From the NCBI GenBank assembly GCA_020852595.1, contig JADZAK010000104.1:1-50400 (forward strand): a DNA stretch of 50,400 nt, read 5' to 3'. The position numbers and the translations under genes were made by a program. Below, in pieces: positions 2,484-50,255 of this stretch (the first letter of the stretch is position 1; every line of letters starts with the position of its first letter). Under the pieces are notes generated by a model. It worked only from the letters and a program-made list of their open reading frames with translations, made no database searches and had not been told where the DNA came from. The DNA comes from Rhodospirillaceae bacterium. GTDB taxonomy: Bacteria > Pseudomonadota > Alphaproteobacteria > Rhodospirillales > Rhodospirillaceae.

Positions 2484-3359
2484 TTACGCGCCAGACATAA
2501 AAGGCGCGGAGGCCACCCACCAGCCCGGCCGGGCGGATTTGAGGGCTTTCACGGCGGCGCCGGCGGTTTCTGAATCCCCAGAGAGCCCGAAGCAGGTCGG
2601 GCCGCTGCCGGACATCCGGGCCAGGAGGCAGCCCTTTGTCCCGTCCAGCGCCGCGAGCATTTCCCCGATCTCGGCCATGACTTCGCCGGCCGGAGCCGCG
2701 AGATCGTTACGGCCGCCCTTGAGGGCGCGGGCCAGGTCCGCGGCGGCGGGCAGGCCGGCGTAGAGCGTTTCGGCCTGAGGCGTGGAATAACGGCCGTTCA
2801 AGGCGCCGAACACGGCCTTGGTCGCCAGCGGCGTGTTGGGGTTCACCAGCACCAGCCACGCGGGCGGAAGATCGGGCGCGGGCGTGAGCGCCTCGCCGAT
2901 GCCGCGCATGAAGGTCGGCGTACGGCGCAGGCAGACAGGCACGTCGGCGCCGAGCTTCGCCGCGAGATCGGCGTCGCCAAGTTGAGCGAGGTTCTCGTCC
3001 CATAATTGCGAAAGCGCGATCAGGGTCGCGGCGGCGTCGGACGATCCGCCGCCGATGCCGGATGCGATCGGGAGATTCTTTTCGAGGGTGACGTGCGCGC
3101 CTTCATGGCGCCCCGTGACGGCGAGCAGATAACGCGCCGCGCGCGTGACGAGGTTGTCGCCTTCGCCCGAGAGGCCTTCCGCATAAGGCCCGGTGATGTC
3201 GAGGCGGATGTCATCGGCGCGGCGCACCGAGATCACGTCGCCGACCCCGGCGAAGACCACAAGCGAGTCGAGCAAATGATAGCCGTCGGCGCGTCGGCCG
3301 CCGACATGCAGGGTCAGGTTGATCTTGGCGGGGGCGAAGACGGACAGGGGCGTGGTCAT
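2484..3359 (-). CDS. ispE: 4-diphosphocytidyl-2-C-methyl-D-erythritol kinase
   Basis: GHMP-family kinase of 291 residues that phosphorylates CDP-methylerythritol in the non-mevalonate isoprenoid pathway in the cytoplasm. The N-terminus has the substrate-binding segment APAKINLTLHV followed by GRRADGYH. The ATP-binding GHMP motif PIASGIGGGSSDAAA lies near residue 100, and a C-terminal glycine-rich ARMSGSGPTCFG motif is present. The start at 3359 is chosen because its ATG overlaps the TGA of the upstream gene (ATGA, 3359-3356); a start five codons further upstream is less likely. A second, broken copy of its first codons lies about 1.1 kb upstream at 4392-4481, which suggests the neighbouring gene was inserted at the ispE 5' end. 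Confidence 0.95.
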   Translation of the reverse strand: MTTPLSVFAPAKINLTLHVGGRRADGYHLLDSLVVFAGVGDVISVRRADDIRLDITGPYAEGLSGEGDNLVTRAARYLLAVTGRHEGAHVTLEKNLPIASGIGGGSSDAAATLIALSQLWDENLAQLGDADLAAKLGADVPVCLRRTPTFMRGIGEALTPAPDLPPAWLVLVNPNTPLATKAVFGALNGRYSTPQAETLYAGLPAAADLARALKGGRNDLAAPAGEVMAEIGEMLAALDGTKGCLLARMSGSGPTCFGLSGDSETAGAAVKALKSARPGWWVASAPFMSGA

Positions 3360-4402
3360 GGGACCGGGTCGCACGAGGATGAGTGAGCGGCGAAGGAACG
3401 GAAGAGGCGCGCATAGCTTGAATCCGCCGATGCGAGATTTTTCTTTTCATTGCCCGCGGTGAACCAGAAGATGCCCGGGATTTCCGCATCCACGCTGGCG
3501 ATGTCGGGTCCTATGAGATTGAGGCGCGGGCTTAGCTGGGCGTAGGCGGCAAAAAGGGCGTACTGGTCCAAGCCCCAGAATGAGGCGTCTATCGTTCGAA
3601 GGACAATATCGGCGACACGGCGGAAATAGGTCATGCAAGCCGGAGAGCCGCCGATGTAGCAAGCGCTGAAATGGTGCCAGGGCTCGATCCGGCCCGCGCG
3701 GATCCGCAACGTCACATCATTGCATTGCGCAAGGAGGTGGCGCGGGTTCGCTGTTACCAGTGCGTCGGCGTCGATCATGACGAGAGGAACTTGGCTCGCC
3801 TCGAGCGCTTCCGCAAAGCGCACAAACCGTGCGGCTCCATAATAATCGGGCAGACGGAAGTTGATCGGCTGGGGTTCAAGAGTCGTCGTGATTTTTAAAG
3901 CGACGTCGGGCAGGACGGCGGGCTCGCCGATGATATGCACATGAATGGGACATCCGGGCGATGCGGCGGCGAGGGACCGCAAAAGCGGGATCCCATACGT
4001 TTCAAAATATTGATTGTCGCAAGACACAAAGAAGGCGGCTTCACGCGGCCATGTGCCGGTCACAGGCGGCAGTTGGATAGGTTGACGCGCGACAAGGCCG
4101 CCGAATTGCATAAGCGCCAGGGGGCTTTTCGTGAGCGCCCGGAGTTTCTCAAGGGCCGCGTCGGCGGCTCTGTAATCGCCGGACAGTACATTCGCGCAGG
4201 CGCTGAACAGGTGAACCCGGGGTTCCGCCGGCATCGTGGCGACCCAGTGGGCGATCGATTCGAACGCCTGCTTGAAAAGAGGGGCCGCGAACTTGAAGGG
4301 AAATTCGGCGATATCCAGCACATGTGCAGGGGGCAGCCCATGCTTCATGCGTTCCTCGCGCTCTGTGGCCGAAGCTGTCTCCAGCAATTCCTCAAGGGTC
4401 AT
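3356..4402 (-). CDS. GT-A-like glycosyltransferase-family protein (uncharacterised)
   Basis: A protein of about 348 residues without signal peptide or membrane helices. The first 120 residues look helical and match nothing I recognise. The remainder resembles a nucleotide-diphospho-sugar transferase: a strand AAFFVSCDNQYF, then LLRSLAAASPGCPIHVHIIG, and a strand ending in VMIDADALV whose DAD would be the metal-binding DXD motif. Later GLDQYALFAAY resembles the acceptor side of GT8-like enzymes. The donor and acceptor are unknown. An in-frame GTG at 4423 would add seven residues. I prefer the ATG at 4402 because it overlaps the stop of the short ispE-like frame (ATGACCCTTGA), allowing reinitiation. 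The 3' end overlaps ispE by 4 nt. The gene is probably an insertion at the ispE 5' end. Confidence 0.75.
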   Translation of the reverse strand: MTLEELLETASATEREERMKHGLPPAHVLDIAEFPFKFAAPLFKQAFESIAHWVATMPAEPRVHLFSACANVLSGDYRAADAALEKLRALTKSPLALMQFGGLVARQPIQLPPVTGTWPREAAFFVSCDNQYFETYGIPLLRSLAAASPGCPIHVHIIGEPAVLPDVALKITTTLEPQPINFRLPDYYGAARFVRFAEALEASQVPLVMIDADALVTANPRHLLAQCNDVTLRIRAGRIEPWHHFSACYIGGSPACMTYFRRVADIVLRTIDASFWGLDQYALFAAYAQLSPRLNLIGPDIASVDAEIPGIFWFTAGNEKKNLASADSSYARLFRSFAAHSSSCDPVP

Positions 4403-4481
4403 GCGAATGAGATCCGTCGGCACGGCGGCCGTAGATGTGCAGGGCCAGGCTGATCTTGGCGGAGGCGAAGAAGGAGGTCAT
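4392..4481 (-). pseudogene. Truncated ispE N-terminus, possibly a translated leader
   Basis: A 29-codon frame starts with ATG at 4481-4479 and ends in TGA at 4394-4392. Its peptide contains SAKISLALHIYGRRADGSH, which lines up with PAKINLTLHVGGRRADGYH at the start of the intact ispE. Several blocks are shared at DNA level, such as GCCAAGATCA and CCTG-CCCTGCA. After about 25 codons the similarity ends and the frame runs into the start of the glycosyltransferase-like gene. I read it as a diverged remnant of the ispE start left by an insertion or duplication. It may now act as a coupling leader for the next gene. Confidence 0.7.
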
Positions 4482-4493
4482 CTTACTTGTTCG

Positions 4494-4615
4494 GTCATTC
4501 CCGGGCTTGTCCCGGGAATCCAGGGTTTCGAAGATCGATCTATGCGGAGAGGAAAATGGTCGCGGCAGCGTACGGCGTTTCGTAACCCTGGATACCCGGT
4601 ATTCGCCGGGTATGG
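4494..4615. repeat. Composite double-hairpin intergenic element (copy 1)
   Basis: The outer end starts GTCATTCCCGGG and folds (TTCCCGGGCTTGTCCCGGGAA). ATCCAGGGTTTCGAAG follows, then a unique stretch, then AACCCTGGATACCCGGTATTC with a second hairpin CCGGT-ATTCG-CCGGG. CCAGGGTT/AACCCTGG form inner inverted repeats. The same architecture recurs at 18914, 39479 and 44466, with different hairpin sequences but preserved complementarity. Confidence 0.75.
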
Positions 4616-4647
4616 CCAGAAAACAAAAATCGCTTCGGCGTCGGCGA

Positions 4648-6384
4648 TTATTTCGACGCCAGGCCCTGTTCGAGCTTCTTGGTGATGGCGGCGCGCTGGG
4701 CGTCCTCGACGTCGAGGATGAGCGCGCGCTGCCACTGGTAGCGGGCTTCGACGCGGCGGCCCACTTTCCAAAGCGCATCGCCAAAGTGCTCGTTGATGGT
4801 GGCGTCGGCGGGCGCGGCTTCGACGGCCTTCTCGAGATGCACGACGGCCTTGTCGTATTCGCCCAAGGTGAAGAGCATCCACCCCAGGCTGTCGATGATG
4901 TAGCCGTCGTCCGGGCGCTTGGTGTAGGCGAGCTCGATCAGGCGGCGCGCTTCCTTGAGGTTCACGCCGCGGTCGAGATAGGAATAGCCGAGATAGTTGA
5001 GCACGGACGGCTCGCCCGGCTTGATCTCCAGGGCTTTCTTGAAGTCCTTCTCGGCGTTGTTCCAATCCTTGGTGCGCTCGTAGGAAATGCCGCGCGTGTA
5101 GTAGATCGCCCAGTTTTCCTCGGCGCCCGCGGGACGCAGTCTTAAGGCGGCGGAATATTCCGCGACGGCGTCGCCGAATTTCTCCTCGCGGCGGAACAAA
5201 TCGCCAATCGCAATATGAGCGTCGGCCCAGGTCGGGCGGTCTTTCAGGATTTCACGCAGAAGGCCGAGCGCCTCGTCCGAACGGTTCATCTGCGTGAGGT
5301 TGCTCGCGACCTGCATGCGGGCTTCGAGCGCGCCCGGCTCGCCCTTCGGAATCGCCGAGAGCGTGGCGTTGGCTTCTTCAAAGCGGCCGCGCGCGGTGAA
5401 GGCGCTGCCGATGAAGGCGCGTGCGACGGTGAGTTGCGGGTTCACATGGATCGCGGTCTGGGCGTAGGCGGTCGCGATCTGCATGCGCGCCGGGTTCGGC
5501 TCGGTCTGCAGAAGCAGTTCGGCGGAGGCGAACAGCGCTTCGGCCATGCCTTCCTGCGGCGTGATCTTGGCGGCCGGCTGGGCGAGCATCGCGTTCATGG
5601 CTTCCAGCATCGGCGAGGGGCCGTGCGCTTTCTCGAAGCGCTGGAGCACGGCCTTGGCCTGCGTGGTTTTGCCGAGGCGGTGATAACCCTTCACGACAAT
5701 GCGCAGGACCGGCGTGCGCTCGGTTTCGATATTGGCGGCGAGCGTGTCGTAGTTGGCGCCGGCGGCGTCTTTGAGGCCGTAATGCTCGTTGAGCATGCCG
5801 CCCATGAGATCGACGAGCTTCGCGGTATCCTGGAAATTCTTGAGGAGCGTGAGTTCGGCCAGCGCGGTCTCGGCCGGCTTGATCGGCGCGGCGCCCCAGG
5901 CGCGCAGCACGGGGAGCGCGAAGCTGTTCACGCTCTGCGCGGGGATTTTTTCGATGTAACCCCAGGCCGTCTGATAGTCTTTTTTCTTATACGCGTCGGC
6001 CGCGAGGATCACCGGGGCCAGACCGCGGCGCGGGTTGGCGTCATAAGCGCGCTTGGCGGCCGGGACGGCCTGGGCGAAGTCGCCCATCTGCGCGGAGAGG
6101 AAATAGGAGTCCTCGATCAGCCGGCTGTTGCTGGGATCGAGATCGCGCGCCGCGTTGAGGAAGTTCACGGCCTTGCCGGTGTCGCCGTTGGCTTCGGCGT
6201 GACGGCCCGCGAGATAGGCGGCGGCAAGACCAACCTTGGATGACGCCGACGGGGGCGCGTTCGGACCGGCGGGCGGCGTCGGCGCTCTGGCGGCCGGCGG
6301 CGGCGAGGCGTCAGCGGCTAAAGCCGCCGGGCTCGCGCTCATAAGAAGGGCAACCGTCAAAACAGCGGAAAAACGACGCGTCAT
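4648..6384 (-). CDS. Secreted tetratricopeptide-repeat protein
   Basis: A 578-residue protein with an N-terminal signal sequence (MTRRFSAVLTVALLMSASPA, cleavage after about ALAA), a Pro/Ala-rich linker, and then TPR helices over most of its length. The C-terminal TPRs are the most regular (YLGYSYLDRG, DSLGWMLFTLGEYDKAV, and NEHFGDALWKVGRRVEA, about residues 470-550). It is probably a periplasmic or outer-membrane-associated scaffold. Family members of this type commonly sit beside ispE in alphaproteobacteria, but their job is not established. The start is set at 6384 because it begins the signal peptide; an in-frame ATG ten codons upstream would spoil it. It lies between ETF-QO and the ispE cluster, transcribed the same way. 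Confidence 0.85.
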   Translation of the reverse strand: MTRRFSAVLTVALLMSASPAALAADASPPPAARAPTPPAGPNAPPSASSKVGLAAAYLAGRHAEANGDTGKAVNFLNAARDLDPSNSRLIEDSYFLSAQMGDFAQAVPAAKRAYDANPRRGLAPVILAADAYKKKDYQTAWGYIEKIPAQSVNSFALPVLRAWGAAPIKPAETALAELTLLKNFQDTAKLVDLMGGMLNEHYGLKDAAGANYDTLAANIETERTPVLRIVVKGYHRLGKTTQAKAVLQRFEKAHGPSPMLEAMNAMLAQPAAKITPQEGMAEALFASAELLLQTEPNPARMQIATAYAQTAIHVNPQLTVARAFIGSAFTARGRFEEANATLSAIPKGEPGALEARMQVASNLTQMNRSDEALGLLREILKDRPTWADAHIAIGDLFRREEKFGDAVAEYSAALRLRPAGAEENWAIYYTRGISYERTKDWNNAEKDFKKALEIKPGEPSVLNYLGYSYLDRGVNLKEARRLIELAYTKRPDDGYIIDSLGWMLFTLGEYDKAVVHLEKAVEAAPADATINEHFGDALWKVGRRVEARYQWQRALILDVEDAQRAAITKKLEQGLASK

Positions 6385-23036: not shown

Positions 23037-23056
23037 CTGGAGGTATTTCGGTACTC

Positions 23057-23268
23057 AAAATGATAGCGGCCCTGCAGGGGACCACGGACCCGCTACGCGG
23101 GTCCGTCATCAAAATGTTTGTTCCCCTGCAGTGCGGGCCTCGCACGTCCCAAAATGATAGCGGCCCTGCAGGGGACCACGGACCCGCTACGCGGGGCCGT
23201 CATCAAAATGTTTGTTCCCCTGCAGTGCGGGCCTCGCATGTCCCAAAATGATAGCGGCCCTGCAGGGG
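23057..23268. repeat. 94-bp tandem repeat, 2.25 copies
   Basis: Units start at 23057, 23151 and 23245 (AAAATGATAGCGGCCCTGC), an exact 94-bp period. The first two units are nearly identical; the third stops after about 24 bp. Each full unit contains the palindrome CCCTGCAGGG, a hairpin GGACCCGC-TAC-GCGGGTCC (one change in copy 2), and a second CCCCTGCAG near AAAATGTTTG. Since 94 is not a multiple of three and stops occur in all frames, it is not coding. The third copy ends in its own hairpin, GCGGCCCTG/CAGGGCCGC. The 192 nt that follow, up to trmL, hold no gene I can support. Confidence 0.9.
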
Positions 23269-23460
23269 AACAGGGCCGCTTCTCAATGGACTCTGGAGGG
23301 GGGCCAGGTCCTTGCCTGTCGTATCCGGACTTCGAGGGGAACTAGGTCCGGATCGCTGACGGTAAGGAAATAGTACGCCCCGCCTCCTTCCAGGACCATG
23401 GTGAAGCTGTGAATTTCTTGTCATGGACAACGCCCCGTTGTAAGCGGCCGGTAACCCACT

Positions 23461-29925: not shown

Positions 29926-29936
29926 CTCTGTTCTCC

Positions 29937-31031
29937 TTATTTCTTGAGTGGCGGCGCGAAATACTGCTGACCCATCAGGCGCATCGGATCGGCATTTTTC
30001 TTGGCCACGAATTTCTGGATGCGGTTGTTGCCGCCGTCGGCGGTGAACAGGTTACCGTTCACATCGACATCCCAGTTGTGCAGGTTGTTGAACTCGCCGG
30101 GATTGGCGCCGAGCACGCCCCAATAGGTGATGAGTTTGCCGCTCAGGTCGAACTTGGCGAAGCGGTTGTAGTCCGCGTCGCTCATCCACAGGTACTGATC
30201 TTCGGTGATGGCGAGGCGCGTCGGGCTGCCGACGTTCTTCCACTCCTCGATGAACTTGCCGTTGGCATCGAACACCTGGATACGGTGGTTGCGGCGGTCC
30301 GAGGCGTAGATGCGGCCCTGCTTGTCGATGGCCACCGAATGCACCAGGTCGAACTGGCCGGGGCCCGAGCCCTTGGAGCCGAACTCGGAGATGTATTTCC
30401 CGTTCTTGTCGAATTTGGCGATGCGGCCGTTCACATAGCCGTCGGCGACGATGAAGGTGCCGTCCGGATAGAAGGCGATGGAGGAGGGCATGTTGAAGTG
30501 GGTCGCATCCCAGCCCGGCTTGTCCTTCTCGCCGAGGCGCATCAGCAACTTTTTACCGTCATTGCTGAATTTGAGGATCTGGTGGCCGAGATCCATGACC
30601 CACACGGCGCGGTCGGGATCGTAGGGGCTGATCTCGATGTTGTGGGCGAAGGTGATCTCCTTGTCCCACTGTTTCCAGTTCTCGATCATCCGGCCCTCGC
30701 CGTTCAGCACCATGATCATATTTTCATGGGGCTGCTGTTCGCGCGGACGGGTCGAGGCTTGCGAGCGCTCCTGCATCACCTTTCCATCGGCGCTCAGCAT
30801 CGGCGCGTTGGGCCGCGTGCGGGTCTGGTCCGAATTGGTGATGAAGATGCGGTTGGGGTTGTCGACCGTCAGCGAGGCGACGGGCTGATCCCACTTGTCG
30901 ATGCCGGGTTTGAACCAGCCGACCACCGGGTCATAGGGACCGGTCTGATCGAGGCCGCCCTTTTCCTGAGCCAACGCGGCCGTGGCGCAAAGCGCGGCAA
31001 CGGCGAGGCCGGTGAGGAATTTCCGTTTCAT
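29937..31031 (-). CDS. Exported NHL-type six-bladed propeller protein (copy 2)
   Basis: A 364-residue secreted protein with a signal peptide (about residues 1-21, ATAALAQ) and NHL-like repeats forming a beta-propeller, resembling the lyase fold of peptidylglycine-amidating enzymes or other NHL proteins. Repeated blocks include VMDLGHQILKFSNDGKKL, FIVADGYVNGRIAKFDKNGK, and RIYASDRRNHRIQVFDANGK. HNWDVDVNGNLFTADGGNNR closes the fan. The upstream gene at 31041 encodes a paralogue with a nearly identical core. It starts 9 nt after that gene stops (site AAGGGG). The ligand is unknown. Confidence 0.85.
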   Translation of the reverse strand: MKRKFLTGLAVAALCATAALAQEKGGLDQTGPYDPVVGWFKPGIDKWDQPVASLTVDNPNRIFITNSDQTRTRPNAPMLSADGKVMQERSQASTRPREQQPHENMIMVLNGEGRMIENWKQWDKEITFAHNIEISPYDPDRAVWVMDLGHQILKFSNDGKKLLMRLGEKDKPGWDATHFNMPSSIAFYPDGTFIVADGYVNGRIAKFDKNGKYISEFGSKGSGPGQFDLVHSVAIDKQGRIYASDRRNHRIQVFDANGKFIEEWKNVGSPTRLAITEDQYLWMSDADYNRFAKFDLSGKLITYWGVLGANPGEFNNLHNWDVDVNGNLFTADGGNNRIQKFVAKKNADPMRLMGQQYFAPPLKK

Positions 31032-31040
31032 GGGAACCCC

Positions 31041-32141
31041 TTATTTCTTCAGCGCGGGCAGGAAGAACTGCTGGCCGATCAGGCGGACCGGATCGGCGCC
31101 CTTTTTCGCGACCAGCTTCTGGATGCGGTTGTTGCCGCCGTCGGCGACGAACAGATTGCCGCTCGCGTCCACATCCCAATTGTGAAGATTGTCGAACTCG
31201 CCCGGATTGCGGCCCAGCACGCCGAAATAGGTGATGAGCTTGCCGCTCAGGTCGAACTTGGCGAAGCGGTTGTAGTCCGCGTCGCTCATCCACAGGTACT
31301 GGTCCTCGGTGATGATCAGGCGCGTCGGGCTGCCGACGTTCTTCCACTCCTCGATGAATTTTCCATTCGCATCGAACACCTGGATACGGTGATTGCGGCG
31401 GTCGGCGGTGTAGATACGGCCTTGTTTGTCGATGGCCACCGAGTGCACGAGGTCGAACTGGCCGGGGCCCGAGCCCTTGGAGCCGAACTCGGAGATGTAC
31501 TTGCCGTTCTTGTCGAACTTCACGATGCGCGCGTTCACATAACCGTCGGCGACGATGAAGCTGCCGTCCGGATAGAACGCCATGGACGAGGGCATGTTGA
31601 AGTGGGTCGCATCCCACGCCGGCTTGTCCTTCTCACCCAATCGCATCAGCAACTTTTTACCGTCGTTGCTGAATTTGAGGATCTGGTGGCCGAGATCCAT
31701 CACCCACACGGCGCGGTCGGAATCGTAGGGGCTGATCTCGATATTGTGGGCGAAGGTGATATCCTTGTCCCACTGCTTCCAGTTCTCGACGACTTTGCCT
31801 TCGCCGTTGAGGACGAGGATGATGTTGTCGTGCGCCTGCTTGTCCGCCGGGATGGTGGAGGCCTGCGACTTTTCTTCCATCACCTTGCCGTCGGCCGTGA
31901 GCATCGGCGCGTTCGGGCGCGTGAAGCGCACCGGCGCGGTGGTCATGAAAATGCGGTCCGGCTTGTCGACGGTGACGGACGCCATCGGGCGGTCCCAGCG
32001 GTCGATGCCGGGTTTGAACCAGCCGACGATGGGCTCATAGGCCCCCGTCTGATCCAGGCCGCCTTTCTCCTGCGCCATCACCGGCGCGGCGGCCGTGCAA
32101 AAAGCCACAACCGCGAGCCCAGCCAGAAACCTACGCTTCAT
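31041..32141 (-). CDS. Exported NHL-type six-bladed propeller protein (copy 1)
   Basis: A 366-residue paralogue of the next gene. A signal peptide (MKRRFLAGLAVVAFCTAAA, cleavage near VMAQ) is followed by EKGGLDQTGAYEPIVGWFKPG, shared almost exactly with copy 2. Propeller repeats then run to the same Lys-Lys end. Core blocks such as SEFGSKGSGPGQFDLVHSVA and DADYNRFAKFDLSGKLITY are identical between copies. The signal region and the stretch around VRFTRPNAP and TIPADKQAHDN diverge. The start at 32141 has ribosome site GGGGAGA; earlier in-frame codons lack a signal. It is first gene of the cassette. Confidence 0.87.
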   Translation of the reverse strand: MKRRFLAGLAVVAFCTAAAPVMAQEKGGLDQTGAYEPIVGWFKPGIDRWDRPMASVTVDKPDRIFMTTAPVRFTRPNAPMLTADGKVMEEKSQASTIPADKQAHDNIILVLNGEGKVVENWKQWDKDITFAHNIEISPYDSDRAVWVMDLGHQILKFSNDGKKLLMRLGEKDKPAWDATHFNMPSSMAFYPDGSFIVADGYVNARIVKFDKNGKYISEFGSKGSGPGQFDLVHSVAIDKQGRIYTADRRNHRIQVFDANGKFIEEWKNVGSPTRLIITEDQYLWMSDADYNRFAKFDLSGKLITYFGVLGRNPGEFDNLHNWDVDASGNLFVADGGNNRIQKLVAKKGADPVRLIGQQFFLPALKK

Positions 32142-47603: not shown

Positions 47604-49145
47604 GTGAGCCGGCGCGAGACCATGGAACGCATCGGGCAAACGGCCGGACTCTCCGCCGCGGAAGTTCACGCACGCTTCGACGTTCTCGTCACCACCGCGG
47701 CGAGCGGCATCGTCGTGGCCGACGCCGCCGGGCGCGTACAACTCTTCAATCCCATGTGCGAACGCCAGTTCGGCTATATCGCGGCCGAGGTCGCCGGGAA
47801 GAGTATCTCGGCCCTTCTGCACAATCCGCCGCCCCTGGGCGAAATACTGCGGCCGGACGCGGGCGGGACCGTACGCCCGCGCGAGATGGTCGGACGGCGC
47901 AAGGACGGCTCCGCCTTTCCGATCCTGCTGTCGATGGGGGAAGGCGCGCTGGACGGCAAAAGTCTGTACGTCGGGTTCATCCAGGACATCACCGCCCAGA
48001 AAGAGGCCGAAAACGCGATCCGCGAACGTGAGGAGCGCCTGCGCAGCGTCCTCGAAACCGGTCCCGACGCGATCATCGTCATCGACGAGATGGGCAACAT
48101 CGAATCCCTCAATGCCGCGGCGGTGTGGCTGTTCGGCTATCTTGAGAGCGAAGTGCTCGGGCGGAACGTGAAGATGCTCATGCCCCCGCCGTACCGCGAC
48201 CGCCACGACGGTTATCTTGCGCACTACCGCGCCACGGGCGAAAAACGCGCCATCGGCATCGGACGCGTCGTCATGGGCTTGCGGCGCGACGGCACGACGT
48301 TTCCGATAGAGCTGAATATCGGTGAGACCCGGATCGGCGAGCGCCGGCTTTTCACGGGTTTTATCCGCGACATCAGCGAGCGCGAGGGCGCCGCGCGGCG
48401 CCTCCAGGATCTGCAGGCCGAGCTCATCCACGTCGCGCGGCTGACCGCCATGGGGCAGATGAGCTCGGCGCTCGCCCATGAGCTCAATCAGCCCCTGACC
48501 GCGGCGGCCAACTACGTCAAGGCGGCGCGCCGCACCCTCGACCAGGGACTCGAGGCGACGCGCCCGAAGGTGCAGGAACTGCTCGATAAGGCGGCCGGCC
48601 AGACGATCCGGGCCGGCCAGATCATCCGGCGTCTGCGGGACTTCGTGGAAAAGCGTGAAGGCAATCGCGCGCCCGAAGACGTCAACAAGGTGATCGAGGA
48701 AGCCGTGGCCCTGGCCTTTGTCGGCGCCGCGGATTCCGGCGTCACGGTCACGCCCAAATTCGACGCGAAACTGCCGCGGGTGATGATCGATAAGATTCAG
48801 ATCCAGCAGATTGTGCTCAACCTCGTGCGCAATGCGCTTGAAGCCATGGCGGGCCGTGAACGGCGCGAACTTCGCCTCTCGACCGCGCTGGACGGCGGCG
48901 ACTTCGTCAGGGTCGCGGTCTCCGATACCGGACCGGGGCTTTCCGAGGACGTCGCTGCGAAGCTGTTTCAACCATTTGTGACGACCAAGAGCGACGGAAT
49001 GGGCATTGGCCTATCCATTTGCCGCTCTATAGTCGAGGCTCACGGGGGAAAGATGGCCGCCGCCGCCAACCCAGGGGGCGGCGTGACTTTTAGTTTTCAG
49101 TTGCCTGTCGCTCACGACGGGTATGAGGAAGAGGCCGTGCGATGA
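47604..49145 (+). CDS. fixL: FixL-type oxygen-sensing histidine kinase
   Basis: A soluble 513-residue kinase (from a GTG at 47604 with a GGGGA site). PAS 1 spans about residues 20-135. PAS 2 (145-262) closely resembles the haem-binding PAS of rhizobial FixL, with RHDGYLAHYRATGEKR giving His201 as probable proximal haem ligand and IGIGRVV giving Arg221. HisKA has SALAHELNQPL (His292). HATPase_c has NLVRNALEAM and DTGPGLSEDVA. These positions are one residue off Bradyrhizobium FixL His200, Arg220 and His291 as I recall them. The upstream open frame to 47460 looks non-coding. Low oxygen should release O2 and activate phosphotransfer to FixJ. The stop overlaps the fixJ start (ATGA). Confidence 0.93.
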   Translation: MSRRETMERIGQTAGLSAAEVHARFDVLVTTAASGIVVADAAGRVQLFNPMCERQFGYIAAEVAGKSISALLHNPPPLGEILRPDAGGTVRPREMVGRRKDGSAFPILLSMGEGALDGKSLYVGFIQDITAQKEAENAIREREERLRSVLETGPDAIIVIDEMGNIESLNAAAVWLFGYLESEVLGRNVKMLMPPPYRDRHDGYLAHYRATGEKRAIGIGRVVMGLRRDGTTFPIELNIGETRIGERRLFTGFIRDISEREGAARRLQDLQAELIHVARLTAMGQMSSALAHELNQPLTAAANYVKAARRTLDQGLEATRPKVQELLDKAAGQTIRAGQIIRRLRDFVEKREGNRAPEDVNKVIEEAVALAFVGAADSGVTVTPKFDAKLPRVMIDKIQIQQIVLNLVRNALEAMAGRERRELRLSTALDGGDFVRVAVSDTGPGLSEDVAAKLFQPFVTTKSDGMGIGLSICRSIVEAHGGKMAAAANPGGGVTFSFQLPVAHDGYEEEAVR

Positions 49146-49789
49146 GCCAAGCTGCCGCCGAAGGCGCCGGGAAAGGTTCGATCTTCGTGGTGGATGACGA
49201 TGCGGCGGTGCGCGATTCCCTCGCGGCGCTGCTGGAAGCGGAAGGGTTCGCGGTCGAGCCGTTCGAGTCCGCCAGGGCTTTTCTGGACGGTTTCAGGCCG
49301 AAGGAGGCCTGTTGCGTGATCGCCGACATCCGCATGCCCGATATGGATGGGCTGGAGCTTCAGGAAGAGATTATCCGGCGCGGATGGGGGTTGCCCGTCG
49401 TTATCATCACCGGCCACGGCGACGTTCCGTTGGCCGTGCGCGCCATGAAGGCCGGGGCGGTGGATTTTATCGAGAAGCCGTTCGACGACGAGGTTTTGCG
49501 CGCCGGCATCGAACGGGGACTGGCGCAGAGCCGCCGCACCCGCGGCGAGAGCGCGGCCGCGCAGGAGGCCGAGACGCGCATCGCGCAGCTCACCGCGCGC
49601 GAACGCGAGGTCATGGAACATCTCGTGGCCGGACGGCCCAATAAAGTCATTGCCCACCGCATGGATATCTCACCCCGGACCGTGGAAGTGCACCGGGGGC
49701 GCGTGATGGAGAAATTGCAGGCCCACAGCCTCTCGGATCTCGTGCGCATGGCGCTTGCGGCCAAGATCGAGATTTCGGCGGCCACTTAA
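49142..49789 (+). CDS. fixJ: FixJ-type response regulator
   Basis: A 215-residue two-domain regulator. The receiver has VVDDDAAVRDSL, the phospho-acceptor Asp62 in IADIRMPDMDGL, the switch Thr90 in VVIITGHGDV and Lys112 in FIEKPFDD. The C-terminal LuxR-type HTH is TAREREVMEHLVAGRPNK with AHRMDISPRTVEVHRGRVM. It overlaps fixL by 4 nt and is the expected FixL partner. It should activate fixK, which lies divergently upstream. Confidence 0.96.
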   Translation: MSQAAAEGAGKGSIFVVDDDAAVRDSLAALLEAEGFAVEPFESARAFLDGFRPKEACCVIADIRMPDMDGLELQEEIIRRGWGLPVVIITGHGDVPLAVRAMKAGAVDFIEKPFDDEVLRAGIERGLAQSRRTRGESAAAQEAETRIAQLTAREREVMEHLVAGRPNKVIAHRMDISPRTVEVHRGRVMEKLQAHSLSDLVRMALAAKIEISAAT

Positions 49790-49804
49790 GGTTCTAAGGA
49801 CTAC

Positions 49805-49810
49805 TACGTA
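49805..49810. promoter_or_regulatory. TACGTA palindrome before the single-domain receiver gene
   Basis: GGACTACTACGTATATCG lies 59 bp ahead of the receiver start. It resembles the TACGTA site before fixL and may bind the same LuxR-type regulator. This is speculative. Confidence 0.3.
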
Positions 49811-49868
49811 TATCGAGCGTGCCATCGCTCGCGTAGATTTTCGGCCATGAATATCATTTGAGAGTTGC

Positions 49869-50255
49869 ATGGCCTCGCGTGAGCCTTCGGTTTTTGTGGT
49901 TGATGACGACGAGCCGGTGCGGGATTCCACCCGCGCCTTGCTCGAATCGCACGGCCTGCCGGTGAACGCATTCGCTTCCGCGGCGGCGCTGCTGGACGCG
50001 GAGCTCCTTCAGCACGGCGACTGCCTGGTTCTCGACAATCATATGCCCGGCATGACCGGCGTCGAATTCGTCGAGACGCTGCGGGCCCGCGACATCAGAA
50101 TTCCCGTAATCATGTTTACGGGCCGTGCCGACGCGGCGCTGAGGCAGCGTGCGCTGCGCGCCGGCGTGCTGGTCGTCTTGGACAAGCCGGTGAACGAGGA
50201 GCACCTGCTCCAGGCTATTTCCCTCGCCCGTCTCTCGGCGGACGATATCCACTGA
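49869..50255 (+). CDS. Single-domain response-regulator receiver
   Basis: A 128-residue stand-alone receiver of the FixJ/CheY type. VFVVDDDEPVRDSTRALL holds the acidic pocket, Asp56 in VLDNHMPGMTGVEF is the phospho-acceptor, Thr is in IMFTGRAD, and Lys is in VLDKPVNEEHL. There is no output domain. It could act as a phosphate sink or as a protein-interaction switch on FixL, or serve the convergent kinase. It has an 80-nt upstream gap with a TACGTA palindrome, so it may have its own promoter. Confidence 0.92.
   Translation: MASREPSVFVVDDDEPVRDSTRALLESHGLPVNAFASAAALLDAELLQHGDCLVLDNHMPGMTGVEFVETLRARDIRIPVIMFTGRADAALRQRALRAGVLVVLDKPVNEEHLLQAISLARLSADDIH

Follow-up and report, generated by a model that had tools for sequence, protein, structure and literature searches.

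A glycosyltransferase gene between two copies of the ispE start points to insertion with target duplication

Nobusato et al. (2000, Gene 259:99) introduced the term insertion with long target duplication for restriction-modification genes of Helicobacter pylori, where the repeats are of the order of 100 bp, as given in excerpts of several papers (PMC1643837, PMC3874152, PMC3031569, PMC2869330). Repeats beside variable segments are fairly common in bacteria, and excerpts of one study place them at 10–18% of small variable segments, mostly at lengths below 30 bp (PMC2884548). Here, we describe a locus in which a glycosyltransferase open reading frame (ORF) lies between two copies of the start of ispE. 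It is found in a window of 50,400 nucleotides, the whole stretch of DNA that was analysed (contig JADZAK010000104.1), and comparison with relatives suggests that the gene probably arrived by an event of this type.

All features of the locus are on the minus strand. A TPR-repeat gene (6384-4648, ATG at 6384), which stands immediately upstream of ispE in relatives, is followed by a 166-nt native spacer (4482-4647) that aligns with the spacers of the related genomes G005 and G006 and less well with that of G002. A palindromic repeat at 4500-4640 within this spacer is aligned in G005 and G006, and related stretches occur elsewhere in the genome. Next comes a 79-nt upstream remnant of the ispE start (4403-4481; hereafter the stub), which consists of ATGACC and a 73-nt core (4475-4403) and is contained in a 29-codon frame (4481-4392) that reads MTSFFASAKISLALHIYGRRADGSHSHDP before its stop. 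The inserted ORF (3356-4402) encodes 348 amino acids, and the intact ispE (2484-3359) begins with the second copy of the duplicated segment (88 nt, 3272-3359). This ispE encodes both GHMP-kinase domains expected of IspE (Pfam PF00288, 1.6e-15; PF08544, 3.6e-9), and its product is 85% identical to that of G002. The overlaps described by a first-pass annotation of this DNA are both present: the stop of the 29-codon frame overlaps the glycosyltransferase start by 11 nt (ATGACCCTTGA), and the glycosyltransferase stop overlaps the ispE ATG at 3359-3356 (ATGA). ATGACC occurs at both gene starts, so the ends of the insert are ambiguous to the base. Positions 4478-4471 of the stub read ACCTCCTT, identical to the anti-Shine–Dalgarno tail of 16S rRNA; a second copy lies at 3738 on the same strand, and the resemblance is probably due to chance.

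The gene between the two copies was expected to be an unrelated GT-A-like gene, and structure prediction bears this out. An AlphaFold2 model of the 348-residue product is of high quality (pLDDT 91, pTM 0.91), and its best Foldseek matches in the PDB are α-1,3-galactosyltransferases and blood-group transferases (E about 3e-7), which we take to be GT6 enzymes. The DxD motif lies at residues 211-213, with D211 and D213 invariant in nine homologues, and the ATG at 4402 is aligned with the homologue starts (MTPDEF, MTLDEL). Since both the predicted fold and the DxD motif are those of GT-A enzymes, we confidently assign the product to the GT-A glycosyltransferases on its modelled structure. It has the fold and the D-x-D motif in common with GT6-type enzymes such as α-1,3-galactosyltransferase and the blood-group A/B transferases, but differs from them in several respects. 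Sequence identity to the structural matches is 10–15%, the TM-score is at most 0.54 when normalised to the length of the target and 0.45 to that of the query, and about 120 mostly helical N-terminal residues precede the first long strand of the model. A PDB sequence search with the protein gave no match, and no Pfam glycosyltransferase family, GT6 included, is matched by the protein or, at E ≤ 1, by any of nine homologues. The last eight residues, encoded beside the ispE start, are predicted to be disordered (pLDDT about 35). Judging from the fold alone, the enzyme's probable role is to attach a sugar to a polysaccharide or protein of the cell surface.

The gene also looks foreign in its composition. 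All 21 other window genes, picked for clear coding signal and scored by leave-one-out, exceed it both in codon score (0.028 for the glycosyltransferase gene, next-lowest 0.181, median 0.428) and in GC3 (0.688, next-lowest 0.785). The outcome is the same when the four neighbours serve as their own reference, a setup that flatters those neighbours. The nearest relative found of the glycosyltransferase is 51–52% identical.

The stub repeats the first codons of ispE, as had been read from the translations. Its core (4475-4403) is identical to ispE (3344-3272) at 60 of 73 nucleotides, with a local score of 82; the highest scores from shuffled sequence are 26 (1,000 mononucleotide shuffles) and 33 (100 dinucleotide shuffles), so the alignment stands well above chance. 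The next-best match of the stub within the window has an E-value of 0.054, and the ispE start is its best non-self match in its own genome; a match on contig C236 with a nearly equal E-value in that search falls in the upstream palindromic repeat, outside the stub. The stub is nearer to its own ispE (60/73) than to the ispE of G002 (55/73).

We then compared the locus with those of relatives. A search of 118 genomes, including the present one (G000), for the glycosyltransferase family and for ispE found ispE in 112; from these, 30 ispE loci were fetched, our own among them. A TPR gene lies upstream of ispE in 30/30, and the glycosyltransferase is absent from between these two genes in all 29 loci other than our own. 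The gap between them is 1,288 nt here and −17 to 234 nt in those 29. In G002, a sister species and the nearest relative, ispE directly follows the TPR gene. The arrangement is thus carried by one genome among those examined, on one MAG contig, and no relative examined has an unrelated intact gene at this position, which, with the repeat score, removes the two findings that would have spoken against a duplication. In an alignment anchored where the TPR gene ends, the stub side matches the native spacer, the palindromic repeat and the ispE start of G006, G005 and G002, the three nearest relatives, which therefore identifies the stub as the former ispE start. The five letters GTCCC before the intact ispE ATG also precede ispE in G002, weakly hinting that the duplicated segment extended slightly upstream of the ATG. 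The repeat, the 29 empty loci and the native flank together indicate that the gene entered the ispE start and left about 80–90 bp of target on both sides, in agreement with the first-pass proposal of an insertion that duplicated the 5′ end of ispE and left the upstream copy at the old start.

The relative age of the event was read from a parsimony tree of the stub, its own ispE and the ispE of G002, G006 and G005, built on 72 nt only. Because the stub and its own ispE have in common five changes that followed the G002 split and are absent from G002, the insertion is younger than that split. Since the duplication, ten changes have accumulated on the stub and three on the ispE copy. The event had been called old; it is indeed not very recent, but it postdates the separation from the nearest relative. 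Ancestral presence of the gene with loss elsewhere is unlikely, because the gene is missing from 29 of 29 other loci and the stub and its own ispE share derived changes. Replacement of the native ispE by a foreign one finds no support, given the even 84% alignment to G002 over ispE and its downstream flank and a stub that is closest to its own ispE.

Homologues of the glycosyltransferase occur in 40 of the 118 genomes, our own counted. We aligned and studied the nine strongest full-length homologues (E < 1e-69) and one fragment; the remaining homologues, outside the flank study, have E-values of 1.9e-35 and above apart from fragments, and mostly form part of longer proteins. The nine full-length copies are distributed over 6 of 19 genomes of the genus (two in G000, three in G002 and one each in G003, G006, G008 and G013). 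They sit in unrelated places, except for the G008 and G013 members, which have the same context, and for the copies beside a phage gene. A second clear case is found on contig C7 of G002, where a luciferase-like gene and a tRNA-Leu gene enclose a member, and a copy of the target flanks it on each side. The two copies match at 53 of 71 columns, counting gaps, and have an exact 23-nt block in common. The corresponding site in G000 is empty and holds the target once; the upstream copy is identical to it at 47 of 59 columns, and the downstream copy at 66 of 79, a span that takes in some native flank.

The phage-gene copies (L069 on G000:C27 and L070 on G002:C101) are in divergent orientation to an adjacent phage virion-structural gene and have an endolysin-like gene nearby. 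Between the two genomes, the proteins of the virion gene are 87% identical and the neighbouring glycosyltransferases only 45%, which suggests that this site may swap glycosyltransferases. On G002:C101 a 146-nt piece of the 5′ part of the virion gene recurs after the member at 72% identity. We do not accept this as a clean third case, as a remnant that we take to be transposase-like, a broken family fragment and the contig end are all close by. Another contig of G002 (C175, L075) carries an array of broken and whole glycosyltransferase copies with repeats up to 96% identical; because a 77-nt stretch of it is also present at the end of C101, these contigs may adjoin. An isolated N-terminal family fragment in G003 (C18; L077, positions 4466-4648) is apparently a dead copy. 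In G006 and G003 no flanking repeat was detectable at the insertions, though relatives without the gene were found; duplication is hence not a constant outcome. The ATG of the G006 member lies 3 nt after an apparent upstream stop codon, placed by alignment.

To put numbers on the repeats, 400 nt on each side of the gene were compared by one method at all loci and set against shuffles. Flanking repeats beat every shuffle at three of the ten family loci (nine full-length and the fragment); the other seven do not, including the fragment L077, with L073 tying its best shuffle and L069 ending 233 nt past the gene, which leaves its downstream flank incomplete. Flanking repeats are not general to all family members. 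Among 75 control genes from 11 loci only one reached a score of 50, and this is a tandem gene duplication. In a post hoc and small comparison, full-length family loci exceed the controls (3/9 versus 1/75, Fisher p = 0.003), as they do when separate sites are counted and the phage-gene site is scored negative (2/6, p = 0.013). The sole control at or above 50 lies in the window at 29935-32141, where a gene of about 365 residues is duplicated in tandem (83% identity over 1.1 kb). The window also holds a short tandem direct repeat at 23056-23280 with a period of about 94 nt (95% identity), and a pair of neighbouring genes at 49142-50255 that resemble response-regulator receiver domains, in which a 70% identical stretch recurs at a distance of 709 nt.

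We consider it probable that, in this lineage, an illegitimate event placed an essentially bare glycosyltransferase ORF of foreign appearance in the ispE start and left about 80–90 bp of target on both sides. The downstream copy would then belong to the complete ispE, and the upstream copy would be what stayed behind at the former start, a stub of 26 codons that is now decaying. The glycosyltransferase may be transcribed from the old ispE promoter region. Ribosomes leaving the stub could reinitiate at the glycosyltransferase ATG, the stub stop lying 8 nt further on, and ispE may have become the downstream partner through the ATGA overlap. A leader-driven glycosyltransferase, or translational coupling, is possible and consistent with the overlapping stop and start. 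The match to a ribosome-binding site is modest at the stub, glycosyltransferase and ispE starts alike (−3.3, −3.3 and −2.4 kcal/mol), and a simple promoter scan gave no match, with only 0.3 expected by chance. The sequences on both sides of the ORF suggest an illegitimate insertion with duplication, which may have proceeded by a staggered break, by template switching or by one-sided recombination after DNA uptake.

The alternative that survives best, although we regard it as unlikely, is a one-sided transfer by homology-facilitated illegitimate recombination, in which donor DNA already carried the glycosyltransferase before ispE and its free end was joined inside the recipient ispE start, leaving the stub. 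Such transfer is known in competent bacteria and has been proposed to leave remnants, as in excerpts on the immunity arrays of the type VI secretion system (T6SS; PMC5361080). It would also fit the phage-gene site of G002, with a member between the phage gene and a broken 5′ copy. However, the donor would have had to carry the same junction, and that junction would then call for an explanation of its own. The TPR gene and ispE would moreover be common to both sides, and ordinary two-sided recombination between them leaves no stub. A single continuous 84% DNA alignment to G002 covers ispE and about 1.5 kb downstream, a figure for the region as a whole rather than for each gene, and it gives no indication that ispE was imported.

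The first-pass annotation had suggested that the stub may be under selection, and a coupling leader peptide selected for the glycosyltransferase would account for a frame that is still open, for a stop that overlaps the next start, and for a length difference to the ispE start of 9 nt, which is in frame when read by eye. The pattern of substitution speaks against this. On the stub branch 8 of 10 changes are non-synonymous (0.80, against a neutral expectation of 0.71), compared with 1 of 12 between the intact ispE genes of G000 and G002 (Fisher p = 0.0015); the own ispE branch has 1 of 3, a number that says little by itself. Over these 72 nt the synonymous and non-synonymous changes of the leader are distributed as they would be without selection. 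IspE residues common to the three nearest relatives have been lost (PAKINL to SAKISL, GYH to GSH). A stop would have arisen in the stub by chance with a probability of only about 0.16, and the frame would stay open without selection with a probability of about 0.84, so the open frame is no evidence against decay. The arrangement is seen in 0 of the 29 other ispE loci, and the leader frame is accordingly not conserved in relatives. Folding of the leader RNA is no better than that of shuffled sequence (z-scores −0.38 and 0.91), which counts against a selected leader and led us to reject the stub as an RNA structure. The stub looks like a decaying remnant evolving in the manner of a pseudogene, according to a small test that bears on the peptide and not on its translation, and a selected leader seems to us improbable.

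Elements that integrate at gene ends leave imperfect direct repeats and rebuild the target gene. The two copies could in principle be attachment-site repeats of such an element, once directed at ispE and later reduced to a single gene; a rebuilt target gene with inexact direct repeats at its end is what is seen here, and family members adjoin phage-like genes in G000:C27 and G002:C101. But the insert is the ORF alone, with no integrase or other mobile gene and no room for another gene between the copies, and the three target segments differ (an ispE start, the end of a luciferase-like gene and a phage gene). A scan of viral contigs with a single peptide pattern found no relative, and we judge this origin very improbable indeed. 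An insertion sequence or transposon is not supported, as the insert is one GT-A-fold ORF without a transposase and has no inverted repeat of at least 12 nt at its ends, the only such repeat being a 12-nt palindrome within the ORF; terminal repeats below that length would escape this search.

Illegitimate insertion with target duplication, the reading we prefer, leads to a broader and more tentative idea, which we think somewhat unlikely as it stands: that the family consists of bare mobile single ORFs, without transposase or detectable terminal repeats, that repeatedly land at new sites (four of them in sense behind another gene), some with 50–150 bp of target duplicated, and borrow the expression signals of the target while the target is rebuilt. 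The ispE locus would show, in steps that can still be read, how a conserved operon can take in a foreign gene that lacks signals of its own while an essential gene stays unbroken: the beginning of the target is duplicated, its former start decays, and the signals there may pass to the new gene. As two sister species carry different insertions of one family, the mechanism could be tested by comparison of strains.

Related outcomes have been described elsewhere. In the case of the orphan immunity genes of T6SS, attributed to homology-facilitated illegitimate recombination, a new gene likewise comes to lie beside a conserved anchor and leaves a remnant; in the excerpts of that work (PMC5361080) the remnant is a displaced neighbouring gene, whereas the ispE stub derives from the anchor gene, part of which was duplicated. 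Transposed genes of Arabidopsis are likewise whole genes at new sites, with direct repeats that often match the empty site of a sister species. That case concerns a plant genome, and its authors consider recombination involving tandem repeats or circles more likely than a true duplication of the target (PMC2869330). Among the matches listed by a literature search there was no report of this glycosyltransferase family or of a glycosyltransferase moved in this way.

The closest likeness is to insertion with long target duplication, with which the present locus has in common, going by the excerpts cited at the outset, the lack of its own transposase, long and variable direct repeats of the target, and recognition by comparison with close relatives. 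The site is empty in relatives (29/29 loci for ispE; at the second site, empty in G000 and filled in G002), direct repeats flank the insert in the window (a 73-nt core, 79 and 88 nt in all), and one copy leaves the target intact, ispE being full length. In the same excerpts the cargo is restriction-modification genes and the host is H. pylori; here a single glycosyltransferase ORF stands between old repeat copies (82% identical) in an uncultured, probably alphaproteobacterial lineage. Restriction-modification cargo is an association in the literature and not part of the definition, and the cargo here is instead a GT-A-fold glycosyltransferase. The window case matches the features of insertion with long target duplication that we compared, except for its cargo; if the broader idea of a family of bare mobile genes is true, it would extend the process from restriction-modification genes to surface-sugar genes.
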